A stretch of 64,000 nt of DNA, from contig NZ_RMVE01000002.1 in NCBI RefSeq assembly GCF_003865345.1, forward strand, positions 124,001-188,000. Direction: 5' to 3'. The stretch comes from Nonlabens xiamenensis (GTDB taxonomy: Bacteria; Bacteroidota; Bacteroidia; Flavobacteriales; Flavobacteriaceae). Positions 3,724 through 26,089 of this stretch are shown one piece after another; the first letter of the stretch is position 1; every line of letters begins with the position of its first letter. The position numbers were made by a program, and so were the translations under genes. The notes below the pieces were generated by a model, which was given only the letters and a program-made list of their open reading frames with translations, made no database searches and was not told where the DNA came from.

Positions 3724-5400
3724 TTACTGGTCTATAATTATTTTTCCATTTTCCAAGGTAACCAATCGGCCACATCTTTCTTTCCAGGCATCGTTCTGGC
3801 TCACTACCACTAGAGACCATCCGTTGACTGGATCGGTAAGAAAATCCATGATGCGCACAGATTCTGATTCATCAAACTGATCCAGCGGATCCTTTAGGAT
3901 CAACATTTTGGGATACCTGACAATACTACGGGCCAAAACAATCTTTTTACCTACGGTATAGCTCAGCTGTTTACCTTCTGGGAAAATGATGGTTTCCAAT
4001 CCATTGGGTAATCGCTTGAGGAAATTGTTTAGACCTACCTTTTCAAGTGCCCAGTAAATACGCTCATCATCCACTTCTGGATCGCCAAAGGTGATATTGT
4101 CTCTCAATGTTCCTTCAAAGGGTGATTCTTCTGTCAGGGATTGACCCAAATTGGCACGATAGTAATTGAGATCAAGTCCGCGTAGGTCCGAATTGTTGAT
4201 ATAGATATTCCCTCTTGTAGGCTCGATGATTCCCGCAATCAATCGCAGTAGCGTGGCCTTCCCACTACCGTTTGATCCATTGACTAAAATGCTACAGGTT
4301 TCTGATATACGTAGGGAAATATTGTCTAGAATGGGTTGGGTACGATTAGGGACTGAAAAGCTGACTTGATCCAATTCCACACTGAAGTTTTCATCACGTT
4401 GGAACGGATGCTCTCCAGATTGTGGTTCCAATTCCTTATCAACAACTTGCCCCAATTTTTCAAGCGAGGTCAACATATCATAAAATGCTTCCAAGCCTGA
4501 AATTACTTTCTCCACCGCGCCAATAATTATCAAAATGATCAATTCTGCCGCGACAAACTGTCCGATATTCATTTCCTGACTCAATACCAATAAACCACCG
4601 ATTATTAACAGCCCCCCGGTGATCAATACCTTAAAACTAATCAATTGAATCGCCTGCCTGATCAGGACTTTGAAATGCTGTTCCCTGTAATCTAAATATT
4701 CCAGCGTCAGACGGTCATTCTTCTCTGTGGCATGATTGGTTATTCCCGATAACTTAAAGCTAACAAGTGATCTAGCTACTTCTTGTAGCCAGTGTGCCAC
4801 TTTATACTTGCTCTTGGACTCCAATAAACTGGTCTTTAAACCTTTTTCTGCAGTGTACTTAAAAAATATATAAGCAATAATCAATAGTACGATACCATAC
4901 ACGATAAAAAATGGATGATAAAACGCGAGCAACATCAGGCCTAAGATGATTTGTAATAGAGCCGTTGGATAATCTACCAGCAGTTTGGAAAGACTCTTTT
5001 GAATCGTGAGCGTATCAAAGAATCTGTTGGCCAGCTCAGGCGGGTAGGTTGATCTTAACTCGCTCATCTTGATTTTGGGAAATCTAAAGGCAAAATCAAA
5101 GGAGGATCTGGTAAAAATCTTTTGCTGGATGTTTTCTGTGATACGTATCTGCATAATCTGAAGGACACCACCAAAAGCAACTCCCAGTGTAACCAATGCG
5201 ACCAACAGAATCCATGAAGTGCTGATTTGTGCCCCCTGGATCAGATTGATAATGGCCTGGATACCCAACGGAAGAGAAAGCCCAACTACACCAGCAAATA
5301 TCGCGTAGTAGAAAATCTGTCGGATATCTGATTTATCCAATTCCAACATGCGCATCAATCGTTGCCATGCGGTTAATATGTTTTGGTTCTTATCTTTCAT
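3724..5400 (-). CDS. ABC exporter-like protein with degenerate nucleotide-binding motifs
   Basis: Fused transmembrane plus ATPase protein of the type I secretion/lipid exporter class, about 558 residues from the ATG at 5400 (a longer start at 5421 would overlap the TetR gene more). Residues about 30-320 hold six membrane helices. The C-terminal domain folds like an ABC ATPase but every catalytic motif is altered: Walker A reads GSNGSGKATLL, with Ala382 where Ser/Thr binds Mg; the signature is LSYTVGKK instead of LSGGQ; Walker B is LILKDP, without the usual Asp-Glu; and the switch histidine is Gln (VVVSQND). The reading frame is intact and it lies in an operon with HlyD and TolC, so it is probably expressed. 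It may hydrolyse ATP poorly or need another ATPase. Confidence 0.85.
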   Translation of the reverse strand: MKDKNQNILTAWQRLMRMLELDKSDIRQIFYYAIFAGVVGLSLPLGIQAIINLIQGAQISTSWILLVALVTLGVAFGGVLQIMQIRITENIQQKIFTRSSFDFAFRFPKIKMSELRSTYPPELANRFFDTLTIQKSLSKLLVDYPTALLQIILGLMLLAFYHPFFIVYGIVLLIIAYIFFKYTAEKGLKTSLLESKSKYKVAHWLQEVARSLVSFKLSGITNHATEKNDRLTLEYLDYREQHFKVLIRQAIQLISFKVLITGGLLIIGGLLVLSQEMNIGQFVAAELIILIIIGAVEKVISGLEAFYDMLTSLEKLGQVVDKELEPQSGEHPFQRDENFSVELDQVSFSVPNRTQPILDNISLRISETCSILVNGSNGSGKATLLRLIAGIIEPTRGNIYINNSDLRGLDLNYYRANLGQSLTEESPFEGTLRDNITFGDPEVDDERIYWALEKVGLNNFLKRLPNGLETIIFPEGKQLSYTVGKKIVLARSIVRYPKMLILKDPLDQFDESESVRIMDFLTDPVNGWSLVVVSQNDAWKERCGRLVTLENGKIIIDQ

Positions 5401-7348: not shown

Positions 7349-8200
7349 TTATCCTTTCATCGCCTTGGGCGCCACCCAGTTATCTTTTGTCAGGTGCATC
7401 ACGTATTCCATACCATGTGCTCTACAGCAATCCATAATTTGCTGTAAATCTTCCGTGTAAAAGCCGCTAAAAAGGATCAAACCGCCACTTTTCAAGCTAT
7501 TGGCATAAGTTGGAATATCCTGCAACAAAATATTGCGATTGATATTAGCAATGATCATATCATAACTACGACCTTCTAACTGTTCTGCTCCACCGAGTAT
7601 AACTTCAATCTGATCGACCTTATTGCGTTCAACATTTTCTAAGGCATTTTCATAACACCAAGTATCTATGTCAATGGCATCTACTCTGGTGGCACCACGC
7701 ATCCTTGCCAATATGGCCAATACACCAGTTCCGCTACCCATGTCCAATACTTCTAAACCACTCAGGTCTTCCTTAAGTAGGTGTTGGATCATCATGTGTG
7801 TGGTCTGGTGATGACCGGTACCAAAGCTCATTTTAGGCTCAATAACGATATCATATTCTACCTCTTTCGCTTGATGGAAAGGTGCACGTACCTGACAGCG
7901 GTCGTCCACGGTGATAGGGTCAAAATTCTTTTCCCATTCGGCATTCCAATTGGTGGCTGGTACATCCGCTTTCGCGAAAGCGACATCACACCAACCATTG
8001 TGCATTAACTCCACCTGATCCAGCAAGTTCTTATGATCCTTAGATTGCAAAATGTAGGCTTTGCAACCTTGATCAGTTTCCATAAAGCTCTCAAATCCAA
8101 CCTCTCCCAGTTGAGCCATAAGCACATCATTCCAGGGGTCTTTGGGTGTCAATTCAAACGTGTACTCAACGTATTTTAAATCCGTACTATGGGTTTGCAT
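7349..8200 (-). CDS. prmA: Ribosomal protein L11 methyltransferase PrmA
   Basis: SAM-dependent enzyme that methylates lysines and the N-terminus of ribosomal protein L11. The C-terminal Rossmann domain has motif I LDMGSGTGVLAILA and motif IV DMIIANINRNILLQD; the N-terminal half is the PrmA-specific substrate domain (FELTPKDPWNDVLMAQL). Length (283) matches Bacteroidota PrmA. One copy of the 16-bp palindrome lies inside the gene (7967-7982), read as AFAKA in the linker between substrate and catalytic domains. The 5' end overlaps the DUF1287 gene by 14 bases. Confidence 0.93.
   Translation of the reverse strand: MQTHSTDLKYVEYTFELTPKDPWNDVLMAQLGEVGFESFMETDQGCKAYILQSKDHKNLLDQVELMHNGWCDVAFAKADVPATNWNAEWEKNFDPITVDDRCQVRAPFHQAKEVEYDIVIEPKMSFGTGHHQTTHMMIQHLLKEDLSGLEVLDMGSGTGVLAILARMRGATRVDAIDIDTWCYENALENVERNKVDQIEVILGGAEQLEGRSYDMIIANINRNILLQDIPTYANSLKSGGLILFSGFYTEDLQQIMDCCRAHGMEYVMHLTKDNWVAPKAMKG
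7967..7982. repeat. CGCTTTCGCGAAAGCG palindrome, copy 1 (in prmA)
   Basis: Exact 16-bp palindrome inside prmA, read on the reverse strand as AFAKA. Confidence 0.95.
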
Positions 8201-22452: not shown

Positions 22453-24774
22453 TTATTTGTTGGGCACCATAGTGATCAGTGGAGCCTCGCTATCTTTGGG
22501 ATATATAATACGTATAGAAGCGATTCCTTTTTCAGTGACATAAGTATGTTCAACGCCGTCGATTTCAATTTTCAGTTTGCGCAATATGTCTCCGCTCATG
22601 CGATGGGTTTTGATTTCCATCTTGTGACCTTTGGCCTGCATTTTTTCGGCTAGGCGTTGAAGCCCTGCTTTGGTCATGTTATTGGTCATAAAGGATTTTT
22701 CCATATCCGAGACCGGGTAGCCGTTTTTAATTCGGTAAAAAGATTCTGCTAAAAATCGATGGCTATTTTTTATGCTATCAGCAGTCACTGCACTTAATTC
22801 GACATATGCTTTTTGTCTGGCACGATTGACTTCGTTGCGCTGATCCATTTGCTGGTGTTTTAGTCTTGTCAAAGAATCCTTACGCAAAACAAGTACTTCA
22901 TGTCTTGCTTCCATCGCCTTACGGCGTTCCTTCATCATTCCTTCCCTTTCTTTCTGGCTGATCTTTCCTAAAATCTTGATCTCGGCATCCGGATGGGTTT
23001 CAATCAGGATAACGCCATTGGCTCCTTCAGGTCCATACATCTTGATTTCCTTAGCGTCTTTCAAAACCGACACACTTTTAATATGCTGGGGAGATACGGA
23101 CTGTACGGATTCAGAATCCATGGGCTCACCATTCAGTATAAACAAAGGAGAATGGGTGGTAGAAAGAGTCCTTTGTTTAACAATTGGCAAGCTAAGTATT
23201 GTTAGGCTATCTTTTTCTGTATCCTTGAATCTGATCATCATTTGAGAGCGGCTTAAGGAGTCTAGAAGCTTGGTAGGAAATCTGGACACCAATGCTTGTA
23301 AGCTGTCACCCGCATATCTAGTTTCCATTTCTCTAGCCATAGCTATCACACTATCCAAATCCATGTTGATATCACCAGAGATATGAAATCCAGGAAACTT
23401 AGGTGCAGGTGTTGAAATCACATAGGCTTCATTACCTAGTCGTTCTCCACATTTTCCCATTGTCCAGCTTTTGGCGCTATCAGATATAATGCCCTTTACA
23501 CAAATGTCAGGAATACCTTTTTCCCTACTATAGGATTGGGAACCTCTATAGCCACGATTATCATCAAGGGTCAATTTAATGCGTACAATACGGCCATCTA
23601 CAATTTTGAGTCGGCCATAATTAAAGTCCACATCGTATTTATCTTTTAGAAACTCCTTTTTTTCCTTAAGATATTGCTCATTGTCTTCGGCGTCAATACT
23701 GAAGGTAATTGTTTGGGTAGTCGCTAAATTTAAAGTTCGCAGGTTATTTTGGTCATACGGCAGAGGTGATTGAGCCTGGGTAGGTTTTCTGCTGGTATGA
23801 TCCGGCAAATTCTGAGACTGATCTGAATCCTGGACAAACTCTGGAACACTGGTTGGTGTTGGAGTTGGATAGGTGCTATTTGTTTTCGCGGCAGCGATAT
23901 ATTCGATCTCCTCCACGACATTAAAACTATAGAGAAAAATGACGATGACGGGTAGAATAAGCGCATACTTATAGGCATTCCATCGGGCAGAGGCCTCTTG
24001 TTGCAACATCATAATACGCTTTTTAATAAACGGCGTAAAAAAATTGTTGGCCAGAGCTGGCTGCATATGTCCGGCTGCTGCACTGAGCAAGGTGCGCTCA
24101 TAGCTCATCCCTTGATTATTCTCTCGTTTTGCCTTGGCATCGGCAAGAAACTCCAGATTCTCCCCTATCTGTCGTTTTAATATCCATGCCAGCGGATTTA
24201 CCCAAAACAAGGCTCGGTAGAGGTGGGCTAGCAAAAGATCAATAGAATGCCATTGTCTAGCATGTGCTTTCTCATGATCCAGAATGGCATCACTTCCTGG
24301 GGTTCCCAAATCTGACTCATGGAAACAGATAAAGTTGAAAAAACTGAAAGGAGCCAGCTTTCGCGAAAGCGAGACCAAAATAAATTGACCGTCTTTCTCC
24401 TTTTTTCCAGCCCGTAAAATCTTGATTAGCGAACTAAGTTCGACTACAATTTTGCCCAAAAAGAAAATGCTAACTGCCAGGTAAAAATATAGACCCAATT
24501 CCCAAAAGTCAATGCTTGGTTCTGGCATGGGCTGTTCCAACACTCCCGCCATAGGCGTGATCCATTGCCCTGGAATGTTAAGGGTCTCAGGTTGCTCTAC
24601 ATATACGGTCTGCGTGATCTCAATCAATGGAAAAAAGATCGAGGCCAATAAACCAAACAGAAGAAATAATCGGTTGGCTTTAAAGAAGGTCAGTTTGCGC
24701 AACAACAATTGGTAAACAAGTACAAAGATGCTGAGTACGCCGGCGCTTTTGAGTAAGTATTCCAATAGTTCCAT
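22453..24774 (-). CDS. M56 (BlaR1/MecR1-like) metallopeptidase with TonB-plug-like tail
   Basis: A 773-residue membrane sensor-protease. N-terminal membrane helices (about 1-130) and the zinc motif HEKAH (about residues 166-170) in ILDHEKAHARQWHSIDLLLA with ENLEFLADAKA downstream are those of peptidase family M56. A fourth helix near IILPVIVIFLYSF (about 280) is followed by a large extracytoplasmic region. This region has no penicillin-binding domain; near residue 590 it contains SVSVLKDAKEIKMYGPEGANG, matching the TonB-dependent receptor plug (carboxy-terminal GVILIET). With the BlaI gene upstream it forms a signal-response pair, presumably cleaving BlaI when triggered. Palindrome copy 4 lies in the gene. 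Confidence 0.87.
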   Translation of the reverse strand: MELLEYLLKSAGVLSIFVLVYQLLLRKLTFFKANRLFLLFGLLASIFFPLIEITQTVYVEQPETLNIPGQWITPMAGVLEQPMPEPSIDFWELGLYFYLAVSIFFLGKIVVELSSLIKILRAGKKEKDGQFILVSLSRKLAPFSFFNFICFHESDLGTPGSDAILDHEKAHARQWHSIDLLLAHLYRALFWVNPLAWILKRQIGENLEFLADAKAKRENNQGMSYERTLLSAAAGHMQPALANNFFTPFIKKRIMMLQQEASARWNAYKYALILPVIVIFLYSFNVVEEIEYIAAAKTNSTYPTPTPTSVPEFVQDSDQSQNLPDHTSRKPTQAQSPLPYDQNNLRTLNLATTQTITFSIDAEDNEQYLKEKKEFLKDKYDVDFNYGRLKIVDGRIVRIKLTLDDNRGYRGSQSYSREKGIPDICVKGIISDSAKSWTMGKCGERLGNEAYVISTPAPKFPGFHISGDINMDLDSVIAMAREMETRYAGDSLQALVSRFPTKLLDSLSRSQMMIRFKDTEKDSLTILSLPIVKQRTLSTTHSPLFILNGEPMDSESVQSVSPQHIKSVSVLKDAKEIKMYGPEGANGVILIETHPDAEIKILGKISQKEREGMMKERRKAMEARHEVLVLRKDSLTRLKHQQMDQRNEVNRARQKAYVELSAVTADSIKNSHRFLAESFYRIKNGYPVSDMEKSFMTNNMTKAGLQRLAEKMQAKGHKMEIKTHRMSGDILRKLKIEIDGVEHTYVTEKGIASIRIIYPKDSEAPLITMVPNK
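24356..24371. repeat. Palindrome GCTTTCGCGAAAGCG, copy 4 (in M56 gene)
   Basis: Exact apart from the outermost left base (A instead of C), read on the reverse strand as LSRKL. Confidence 0.9.
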
Positions 24775-24775
24775 C

Positions 24776-25135
24776 TTATTTTTCTTTTGATTCGATCATT
24801 TCCAATATTTCTCTGAGTTCAGAGGCACTAATTTTTTCTTCCTTGGCAAAAAATGATACCATGTTTTTATAGGAGTTATTGAAATAACTGGTCATGGCAT
24901 TATTGACAAATTTGTTCCTGTAGGCTTCTTTGTCAATCAAAGGGAAGTATCGGTGAGTTTTTCCAAAAGCCTCATAACCAACATATTTTTTATCCTCCAG
25001 TTTACGTACAATGGTAGATACCGTATTATAGTGGTTTTTTCCTTCCAACTCTGGAACAATCTCTTTAACAAAGGCATTCTCGAGCTTCCAGAGTGCCATC
25101 ATCACTTCTTCTTCTTTTTGGGTGAGTTTTTCCAT
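24776..25135 (-). CDS. BlaI/MecI/CopY-family transcriptional repressor
   Basis: A 119-residue winged-helix repressor. The motif LTQKEEEVMMALWKLENAFVKEIV, then HYNTVSTIVRKLEDKKYVGYEAFGKTHRYFPLI, is the BlaI DNA-binding domain; residues 80-119 form the dimerisation helix region. Family members bind palindromes upstream of their own operon and are inactivated by cleavage by the cognate M56 protease, encoded immediately downstream here (one base between stop and start). The upstream region holds a dense array of AAACTA/TAGTTT half-sites. Confidence 0.9.
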   Translation of the reverse strand: MEKLTQKEEEVMMALWKLENAFVKEIVPELEGKNHYNTVSTIVRKLEDKKYVGYEAFGKTHRYFPLIDKEAYRNKFVNNAMTSYFNNSYKNMVSFFAKEEKISASELREILEMIESKEK

Positions 25136-25224
25136 AATATTTATAACAATTTATTTTACAATAGTTTAAAAAATCTGCCTTTGCATTTTTACCTGTTGGA
25201 TATCCATCGTGCCGGCTTGTGGAT

Positions 25225-25281
25225 TCAAACTTATAACTATTTTTTTAGTTTACCAACTATTATTATAGTTTTTAAACTAAA
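25225..25281. promoter_or_regulatory. BlaI operator array
   Basis: Four overlapping inverted repeats of the half-site AAACTA/TAGTTT (or AACTA/TAGTT) lie within 57 bases: 25225-25240 (AACTA, TAGTT), 25245-25260 (AACTAT-TATT-ATAGTT), 25256-25269 (TAGTTT-TT-AAACTA) and 25264-25281 (AAACTA-A6-TAGTTT). A further TAGTTTA is at 25162. Position upstream of the BlaI gene makes autoregulation the likely role; the specific operator sequence is inferred. Confidence 0.65.
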
Positions 25282-25408
25282 AAAATAGTTTAATCTGCCC
25301 TATTTCCTCTATTGATCGTATCTCCCAACTTCAGATTCAGTTAACGTGTACTAACATTCATATGTGAACAACAACAATTGCTTTATTTTTGTCAGCAAAT
25401 CATCACCA

Positions 25409-26089
25409 GTGCGCATCGACATCATTACTTTATTACCTGAATTGATCAAAAGTCCTTTTGAAGCCTCCATTTTAAAGCGCGGCATTGAAAAAGGCCTGGT
25501 GGAGGTGCATATGCATGATTTGCGCAAATACGGCCTGAACAGATATAACCAAGTGGATGATTACCAATACGGCGGTGGAGCAGGCATGGTCATGATGATT
25601 GAACCGCTGGACAAATTGATTCATGAGCTCAAGGCGGAAAGGGAGTATGAAGAAGTCATTTATATGACACCAGATGGTGAAACCTTGCACCAAGGCATGG
25701 CCAATCACCTGTCCACCAAAAAAAATCTACTGATTATCTGCGGACATTATAAAGGTGTGGACCAAAGAGTGCGTGATTTATATGTCACCAAAGAAATTTC
25801 CATCGGCGATTATGTCTTGTCCGGCGGGGAATTGGGCGCTGCAGTACTCTGTGATGCTCTGATCCGATTAATTCCTGGCGTGATTTCTGATGAGACTAGT
25901 GCATTGACCGATAGTTTCCAGGACGGATTGCTGGCTCCACCAGTTTATACACGTCCAGCCGACTATAAAGGGCATAAGGTTCCTGAAATTCTGTTGAGTG
26001 GAAATCTACCAGCCATCGAGCAATGGCGGGAGGATCAAGCTTATGAGCGAACGAAAAACAGGCGTCCCGACCTTTTAAAAGAAGATTAA
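25409..26089 (+). CDS. trmD: tRNA (guanine-N1-)-methyltransferase TrmD
   Basis: Methylates G37 of tRNAs, next to the anticodon, with SAM. The SPOUT knot motifs are present: [30 protein letters not shown] and the SAM-binding knot [14 protein letters not shown]. The start is most likely the GTG at 25409 (reading [13 protein letters not shown], i.e. MRIDIITL), because TrmD proteins begin there; an upstream in-frame GTG at 25364 adds 15 unmatched residues. About 226 residues. trmD and rplS are neighbours in many bacteria; here a T9SS-domain gene separates them. Confidence 0.95.

Follow-up and report, generated by a model that had tools for sequence, protein, structure and literature searches.

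The window, that is, the whole 64-kb stretch of DNA that was analysed, contains a gene for a BlaI/MecI-type repressor (blaI) that is followed by the gene for an M56 membrane metalloprotease. On its other side, blaI (24776-25135, minus strand) is separated by an intergenic region from the divergent trmD, whose frame runs from 25364 to 26089 on the plus strand. This intergenic region carries three exact AACTA-N6-TAGTT palindromes of 16 bp each, which do not overlap, span 25235-25290 and follow one another at a period of exactly 20 bp from site to site, giving six half-sites in the register of MecI and CopY operators (Table 1). The full AAACTA/TAGTTT arms are perfect in the distal site only (25274-25291), and a seventh half-site, at 25162, is unpaired. 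A preliminary description of this DNA had placed a dense palindromic array upstream of blaI, which is borne out, and had counted four overlapping palindromes in 25225-25281, which is not: there are three separate ones, the extras being divergent junctions (TAGTT-N4-AACTA) between adjoining sites, and that interval truncates the third site.

Table 1. Features of the blaI-M56 locus, with positions in the window
Feature	Position	Strand	Sequence or motif	Basis and remarks
Operator O1, distal	25275..25290	-	AACTATTTTTTTAGTT	Exact match
Operator O2, middle	25255..25270	-	AACTATAATAATAGTT	Exact match
Putative -33 element	25254..25256	-	TTG	O2/O3 junction; 20-bp spacer to the -7 element
Operator O3, promoter-proximal	25235..25250	-	AACTAAAAAAATAGTT (blaI strand)	Exact match; fills the -33/-7 spacer
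Putative -7 element	25226..25233	-	TAAGTTTG (TAnnTTTG)	One base past O3
blaI, BlaI/MecI-type repressor, 119 aa	24776..25135	-		Penicillinase_R, 104.3 bits (cut-off 22.6); MecI in the PDB, E 1.4e-6
Predicted BlaI cleavage position, F95/F96	24848..24853	-	VSF/FAKEEKIS	MecI alignment with S. aureus BlaI N101-F102
M56 (BlaR1-type) membrane metalloprotease, 773 aa	22453..24774	-		Peptidase_M56, 40.2 bits (cut-off 31); hydropathy
Zinc-protease motif, residues 167-171	24262..24276	-	HEKAH	Between hydrophobic regions 3 and 4
SusC/RagA half-plug, residues 538-595	22990..23163	-	STTHSPLFILNGEPMDSESVQSVSPQHIKSVSVLKDAKEIKMYGPEGANGVILIETHP	Profile and orthologue evidence

The intergenic region is rich in A+T (71%), and an array of this kind might in principle be a chance repeat or a DNA curvature element. 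This is hardly credible: a dinucleotide shuffle of these 274 bp, repeated 20,000 times, gave one exact site in 15 cases and two in none, and across the 28 related arrays described below the half-site letters are kept and the spacers vary. In the whole genome (3,684,258 bases, 3.68 Mb), there are four exact matches to the operator, three of which are the array itself. A genome scan that allowed two mismatches was uninformative, with 293 matches against 841 for a reversed control pattern.

The repressor can be assigned to the BlaI/MecI/CopY family, as it scores above the curated cut-off of Penicillinase_R and has an ACTA-N6-TAGT palindrome at its own promoter. In the excerpted text of PMC7253601, the CopY operator is a sequence of 16 bases, RNYKACANNTGTMRNY, and AACTA agrees in register with its first five positions. 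Likewise, CopY_TcrY is the best NCBIfam match of BlaI (45.5 bits), which would fit a copper- or metal-responsive repressor of the CopY type. Nevertheless, this score is far under the cut-off of 121.95, and the 119 residues of BlaI include no cysteine and, therefore, no CXC metal site, which the same excerpt gives as a feature of CopY. Moreover, the order of blaI and then an M56 protease gene is the BlaR1 arrangement, and we consider a CopY-type role highly improbable.

In Staphylococcus aureus, BlaR1 cleaves BlaI directly, between N101 and F102, according to the excerpted text of PMC9834060. The aligned position is FF in all 30 BlaI orthologues compared; thus, the residue at P1 is Phe and not Asn.

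The array is a conserved property of this gene pair. Orthologues were searched for in 59 genomes, this one included, and BlaI orthologues at 76-90% identity were found in 21 of the 22 other genomes of the genus, the exception being a 77%-complete draft; a further eight have 60-65% identity. By the criterion of our script, an array with the same 20-bp period is present at 28 of 30 orthologous blaI loci, the present one included. O2 and O3 each have at most one mismatch in all 28 aligned arrays, a limit that for O3 is also part of the script's criterion. O1 has at most one mismatch in 25 of them and at most two in all 28, and the same counts hold for the three sites taken together. In the 28 arrays, the left arm always begins with AAC and the right arm always ends with GTT; the six central bases and the gaps between sites are variable. 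Outside this set, one locus (L054) has two exact sites 20 bp apart some 1.5 kb upstream, ahead of another gene, and at the other (L059) the array was not found within 1,051 bp upstream of blaI.

Promoters of Bacteroidota follow the consensus TTTG or TTG, about 20 bp, and TAnnTTTG. In 24 of the 28 arrays, TAnnTTTG lies exactly one base beyond O3, and the O2/O3 junction reads TTG in 26 and TTTG in 20. With TAnnTTTG and TTG at these positions relative to the sites, O3 fills the spacer of the putative promoter and O2 abuts its -33 element. At two loci (L036 and L043), the array is found ahead of an extra open frame that precedes blaI, which indicates that it marks the promoter and not the start of the gene. 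As the array is located between trmD and blaI, it could also be thought to control trmD. However, a count made for the blaI side alone places the -7 element there in 24 of 28 arrays. Among relatives, the array stays with blaI although the gene opposite changes, and at L036 and L043 the array precedes the extra frame before blaI. Control of trmD is, thus, very unlikely, and it was rejected. The excerpted text of PMC7253601 carries the suggestion that, of the two operators in the cop operon, one blocks the -35 element and the other the polymerase, and that the same holds for BlaI. Taken together, the conservation, the placement on the promoter and the covariation of helix and operator described next strongly support the earlier reading of these palindromes as BlaI operators, and it is very probably through this array that BlaI represses its own operon, blaI-M56.

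The recognition helix of BlaI is presumably HYNTVSTIVRKL, a position that we take from the family fold. In a phylum-wide sample, 83 of 148 genomes have a BlaI-family match above the cut-off, and the best-scoring 30 BlaI loci of this sample were used to compare helices with operators. CTA-N6-TAG, a loose pattern taken here as a plain count, is present upstream at 27 of the 30, the exceptions being L172, L182 and L190. Twelve of these repressors have an NTxST helix; ten of them have sites, all ten of the AACTA...TAGTT type, with one odd extra site at L184. Among the 17 with a TTxMT helix, 16 have sites, and 15 of these have a TACTA...TAGTA site, L179 being mixed. Mixed sites are also found at L188, where the helix, NTxAT, is intermediate. 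The association of helix and operator gives a p value of 3e-7 in a Fisher test that left out L179, L188 and the three BlaI loci devoid of sites and that is uncorrected for kinship. Thus, the outer bases of the operator appear to follow the recognition helix of BlaI, with the reservation that the NTxST and TTxMT groups are largely separate lineages and the covariation is confounded with phylogeny.

This genome also encodes a second BlaI/M56 pair (L010:4633-6770). Its BlaI has a TTxAT helix and three TCTA-N6-TAGA sites, at 4633, 4661 and 4681, and so two paralogues in one cell would differ in their operator code. The M56 protein of this pair has proline-rich stretches, and Pfam lists no Plug domain in it.

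A search of the genome for the same operators near other genes, which the preliminary description had proposed as a check, found the sole exact site outside the array in the promoter of a run of GLPGLI and outer-membrane-protein genes, with the identical bases in six species; the refuting condition named there, operators missing from other BlaI targets, thus did not hold, in favour of the earlier reading. On the gene strand this fourth site reads AACTATAAAAATAGTT, and it starts 45 bp before a gene of the GLPGLI family (TIGR01200, 168.4 bits against a cut-off of 50). The gene run consists of two GLPGLI genes and a gene for a 901-aa protein, and it is divergent from genes for a histidine kinase and a response regulator. 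In the 901-aa protein, CarboxypepD_reg is present and Plug matches weakly; its counterpart in the relative G002 passes the outer-membrane barrel model OMP_b-brl_3 (35.1 bits, cut-off 27). The identical 16 bases are present in the GLPGLI promoter of six species, where every one of the 16 operator positions is invariant; the flanks keep 20 of 40 bases upstream and 8 of 30 downstream. The same sequence is the commonest O3 (12 of 28) and the commonest O2 (7 of 28) of the arrays. This placement of the operator circumstantially backs a link of the blaI-M56 pair with the outer membrane.

GLPGLI control as a rule for the genus was rejected: of 30 GLPGLI loci retrieved, with paralogues and distant matches among them, 28 were read, and 6 of these have the exact operator; one further locus, L101, is a near miss with one mismatch. 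In the tree of M56 proteins, a supported clade unites five of the six species with the operator, and the present species falls outside it, with its placement open. Two changes are needed to explain the distribution, and a single one suffices in only 2% of 200 bootstrap trees; therefore, on this tree, two gains, or one gain with losses, are likelier than a single gain.

Two other features of this neighbourhood deserve mention. Upstream of the GLPGLI promoters, at L082-L087, there are TTAAC repeats 10 bp apart, located 31, 21 and, in three cases, 11 bp before the operator; they are possible sites of the divergent response regulator. In Riemerella anatipestifer, the excerpted text of PMC9603813 describes a PhoP motif centred on TTTAACA and several GLPGLI genes in the direct regulon. 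In view of the repeats and of this motif, the GLPGLI promoter may have two regulators. The second feature is an unusual pair of genes near the GLPGLI run (L275:10968-15127; L274:1-3638), one for a PPDK_N-domain protein with an export-like start and one for a Beta-lactamase2-family protein. In G002, the latter (402 aa, 39 bits, cut-off 22) is encoded on the same strand further along the run, past the PPDK_N-domain gene. In the present genome, its counterpart, of which only part was available (L274:1-678), scores 17.7 bits, and two genes on the opposite strand part the barrel gene from the PPDK_N gene and the Beta-lactamase2 counterpart, which makes co-transcription of this counterpart unlikely here. 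A link of the GLPGLI neighbourhood with the cell wall cannot be dismissed.

A large BlaI regulon is not supported by these data. Across 23 genomes of the genus there are 4-13 exact sites per genome, which never exceeds the count for the reversed control (7-41), a pattern that differs in dinucleotide content. From the matches listed for these genomes, 28 loci were chosen, with two pairs of duplicates among them, and in 21 the site is inside an open frame of more than 100 aa. The other seven comprise blaI itself (L061), two GLPGLI loci (L114 and L115), frames of 231 aa (L068) and of 412 aa, the latter at a distance of about 165 bp (L117), and two loci whose sites are 17 bp apart, before another BlaI paralogue (L126) and before a 173-aa lipoprotein-like gene (L124). 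When the operator was combined with a -7 TTTG, the present genome gave three matches, against seven for the reversed control: blaI, GLPGLI and C5:233592, which is inside a 323-aa frame. Among the sites read in other relatives, no recurrent target was found beyond the blaI promoter.

At the two loci with 17-bp pairs (L126:1550-1971; L124:1548-1580), the further BlaI paralogue of relatives is accompanied by AACTA-type sites in steps of 17 and 24 bp, and the 173-aa lipoprotein-like gene, behind a 17-bp pair of the same kind, is a possible target.

The partner of BlaI is an M56 protease of the BlaR1 type: its profile score is above the cut-off, it has an HExxH motif and its protease domain is located between membrane segments 3 and 4. 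Hydropathy gives four hydrophobic regions, at about residues 6-25, 33-57, 92-120 and 268-290, and HEKAH, being between the third and the fourth, is predicted to be cytoplasmic. An alignment of 27 M56 proteins (26 orthologues and the present protein; three further loci gave fragments only) shows no variation at H167, E168 and H171. The C-terminal tail of about 480 residues is predicted to be periplasmic. The earlier statement that this protein has no beta-lactam sensor domain is supported at the level of sequence, as Pfam lists no transpeptidase or penicillin-binding domain at E values up to 1; the blaR1_generic model gives 24.4 bits, with a cut-off of 400.

Instead of such a sensor, the tail appears to carry a genuine half-plug of the SusC/RagA type, corresponding to the second half of the plug only. 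The NCBIfam SusC/RagA model TIGR04056 matches with an E value of 2e-14 and 52.9 bits (cut-off 368.25), and the SusC/RagA signature TIGR04057 with 2.3e-10 and 40.1 bits (cut-off 46.2); Pfam Plug gives 18.3 bits, under its cut-off of 23.9. No full-length plug with a beta-barrel was found in the M56 protein, the TIGR04056 match being confined to residues 535-637. Among the 27 M56 orthologues, Pfam Plug matches 24 at E values up to 0.1 and the SusC/RagA models match 25 at E values up to 0.001. One to three copies of the half-plug, variable in number and position, are present in 26 of the 27, the sole exception being L153. With a profile built from 35 copies, a search of the PDB gave RagA at 1.8e-17, about 55 residues being aligned without gaps to residues 62-116 of 6sm3. 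As a statement about sequence, the plug-like segment proposed earlier is, thus, real and stronger than had been claimed.

Elsewhere in the phylum the half-plug is rarer. A regular expression, which could miss diverged copies, found it in one of the 30 best-scoring M56 proteins (two of which are cut) and in 2 of 14 lower-scoring ones; the latter come from 20 regions, six of which had no recognised M56 frame and were dropped. When the named genome collection was scanned with this protein as the query, no M56 protein was found, and the plug led to one locus with a SusC-like receptor gene followed by a gene of the SusD family. In two relatives, the gene directly after M56 encodes a separate protein, with one half-plug (L150:4801-5601) or three (L156:3154-4053), as counted by eye.

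The sites, their conservation, their overlap with the promoter, the architecture of the two proteins and the second site can all be read from the DNA, and they suggest the following mechanism. BlaI dimers would bind to the three 16-bp sites, whose centres are 20 bp apart, or about two helical turns, so that the dimers would be on nearly the same face of the DNA. With O3 filling the -33/-7 spacer and O2 next to the -33 element, BlaI on the DNA should keep RNA polymerase off the promoter, and the close packing of three sites suggests cooperative, steep repression. When activated from its periplasmic side, the M56 protease would cut BlaI at VSF/FAKEEK, upon which both BlaI and M56 would rise, and the rise of M56 would be self-reinforcing after the release of BlaI. 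In six species, BlaI may also repress the run of two GLPGLI genes and the outer-membrane protein gene through its single AACTATAAAAATAGTT site. The signal is most likely to come from the periplasm or the outer membrane, since a tail with one to three half-plugs replaces the penicillin-binding domain. We infer BlaI binding, cooperativity, cleavage and induction from these features, and we place the probability of the whole reading, that is, autorepression of blaI-M56 through the array, relief by M56 cleavage, co-repression of the GLPGLI run in six species and a periplasmic or outer-membrane signal, at about 0.8.

The nature of this signal is less clear, and that it is a state of the envelope or of a receptor is a guess. 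There are roughly even odds that this is an ordinary autoregulatory BlaI/M56 pair in which the half-plug is a generic envelope module, uninformative about receptors, and which senses cell-wall damage or some other stress in the periplasm. For instance, this genome has plug segments in proteins other than receptors, namely, L282, which combines a VWA domain with CarboxypepD_reg and Plug, and the large protein L290, with no recognised receptor barrel in the part read of either; given these two proteins, the half-plug may be a general binding piece. Likewise, by regular expression the half-plug is absent from most of the other M56 proteins read (it was found in 1 of 30 and 2 of 14), which implies that control by BlaI/M56 does not need one; its copy number and place vary even among orthologues, and in G002 a Beta-lactamase2-family gene is on the same strand along the GLPGLI run. 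By contrast, at least one half-plug is retained in 26 of 27 orthologues although much of the tail is poorly conserved, and the second operator heads a run that encodes an outer-membrane barrel protein, both of which speak against this reading.

A more specific and rather doubtful possibility is that the half-plug is a decoy of the SusC/RagA plug that competes for a shared partner on the periplasmic or TonB side. Surplus, empty or misassembled receptors might then free or engage it, switching on the protease; BlaI would be cut and the expression of the sensor and of the outer-membrane operon would change. The presence of a Beta-lactamase2-family gene further along the run of the second target lowers the odds of this decoy reading. 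If it were true, a BlaR1-type protease and a repressor would form a route from the outer membrane to the cytoplasm.

Some parts of the proposed circuit are well known from other systems. As in BlaI-BlaR1 and MecI-MecR1 of Staphylococcus and Bacillus, a winged-helix repressor gene is beside the gene for an M56 metalloprotease with four membrane segments, and the repressor is very probably autoregulated. The mec and bla operators have the geometry ACTA-N6-TAGT, which is also found here, and F is at P1′ of the aligned cleavage site in both cases. In contrast to these systems, the tail here has a SusC/RagA half-plug, with no penicillin-binding sensor found, the operon has three sites of its own at a 20-bp period, and the second exact site heads an outer-membrane-protein run rather than a beta-lactamase or mecA promoter. 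The CopY/CopR copper repressors are of the same family and share the 16-base palindromic operator and its register, whereas here there is a protease partner and no CXC metal site. With the SusC/RagA TonB-dependent receptors, the shared feature is the gapless alignment of the half-plug profile to RagA; unlike in these receptors, there is only the second half of the plug, with no barrel, and it is joined to an inner-membrane protease. Finally, outer-membrane-to-cytoplasm signalling of the FecR-FecI type uses an anti-sigma factor and a sigma factor to report on a TonB-dependent receptor. The likeness here would be functional and hypothetical, with a protease and a repressor in their place.

Autoregulation of BlaI with a protease partner is known. 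Judging from the literature matches listed, the half-plug sensor, the conserved three-site array with its 20-bp period, the code that links helix and operator in this phylum and the site at GLPGLI are new, and none of these matches deals with what the BlaI/M56 pairs of Bacteroidota sense or regulate. Annotation pipelines of databases very likely give such proteins an M56 or plug label already, so that the combination of M56 and half-plug is itself not unseen. BlaI/M56 pairs are common in the phylum, and this one allows exact statements on operator code, promoter geometry and a candidate second target. Moreover, its sensor contains a segment of the receptor class through which Bacteroidota take up food; if the plug senses the state of a receptor, the pair would be a protease-and-repressor counterpart of anti-sigma signalling.

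Another repeated sequence of the window is the palindrome GCTTTCGCGAAAGC, which occurs in 13 places, for example, at 7968, 20407, 24357 and 60194, with none expected from shuffles. In related genes it encodes FAKA within starts that resemble signal peptides (L006 at 1416, L137 at 857, L140 at 219 and L147 at 199), a curious coincidence of export signals with a DNA word repeated so often.
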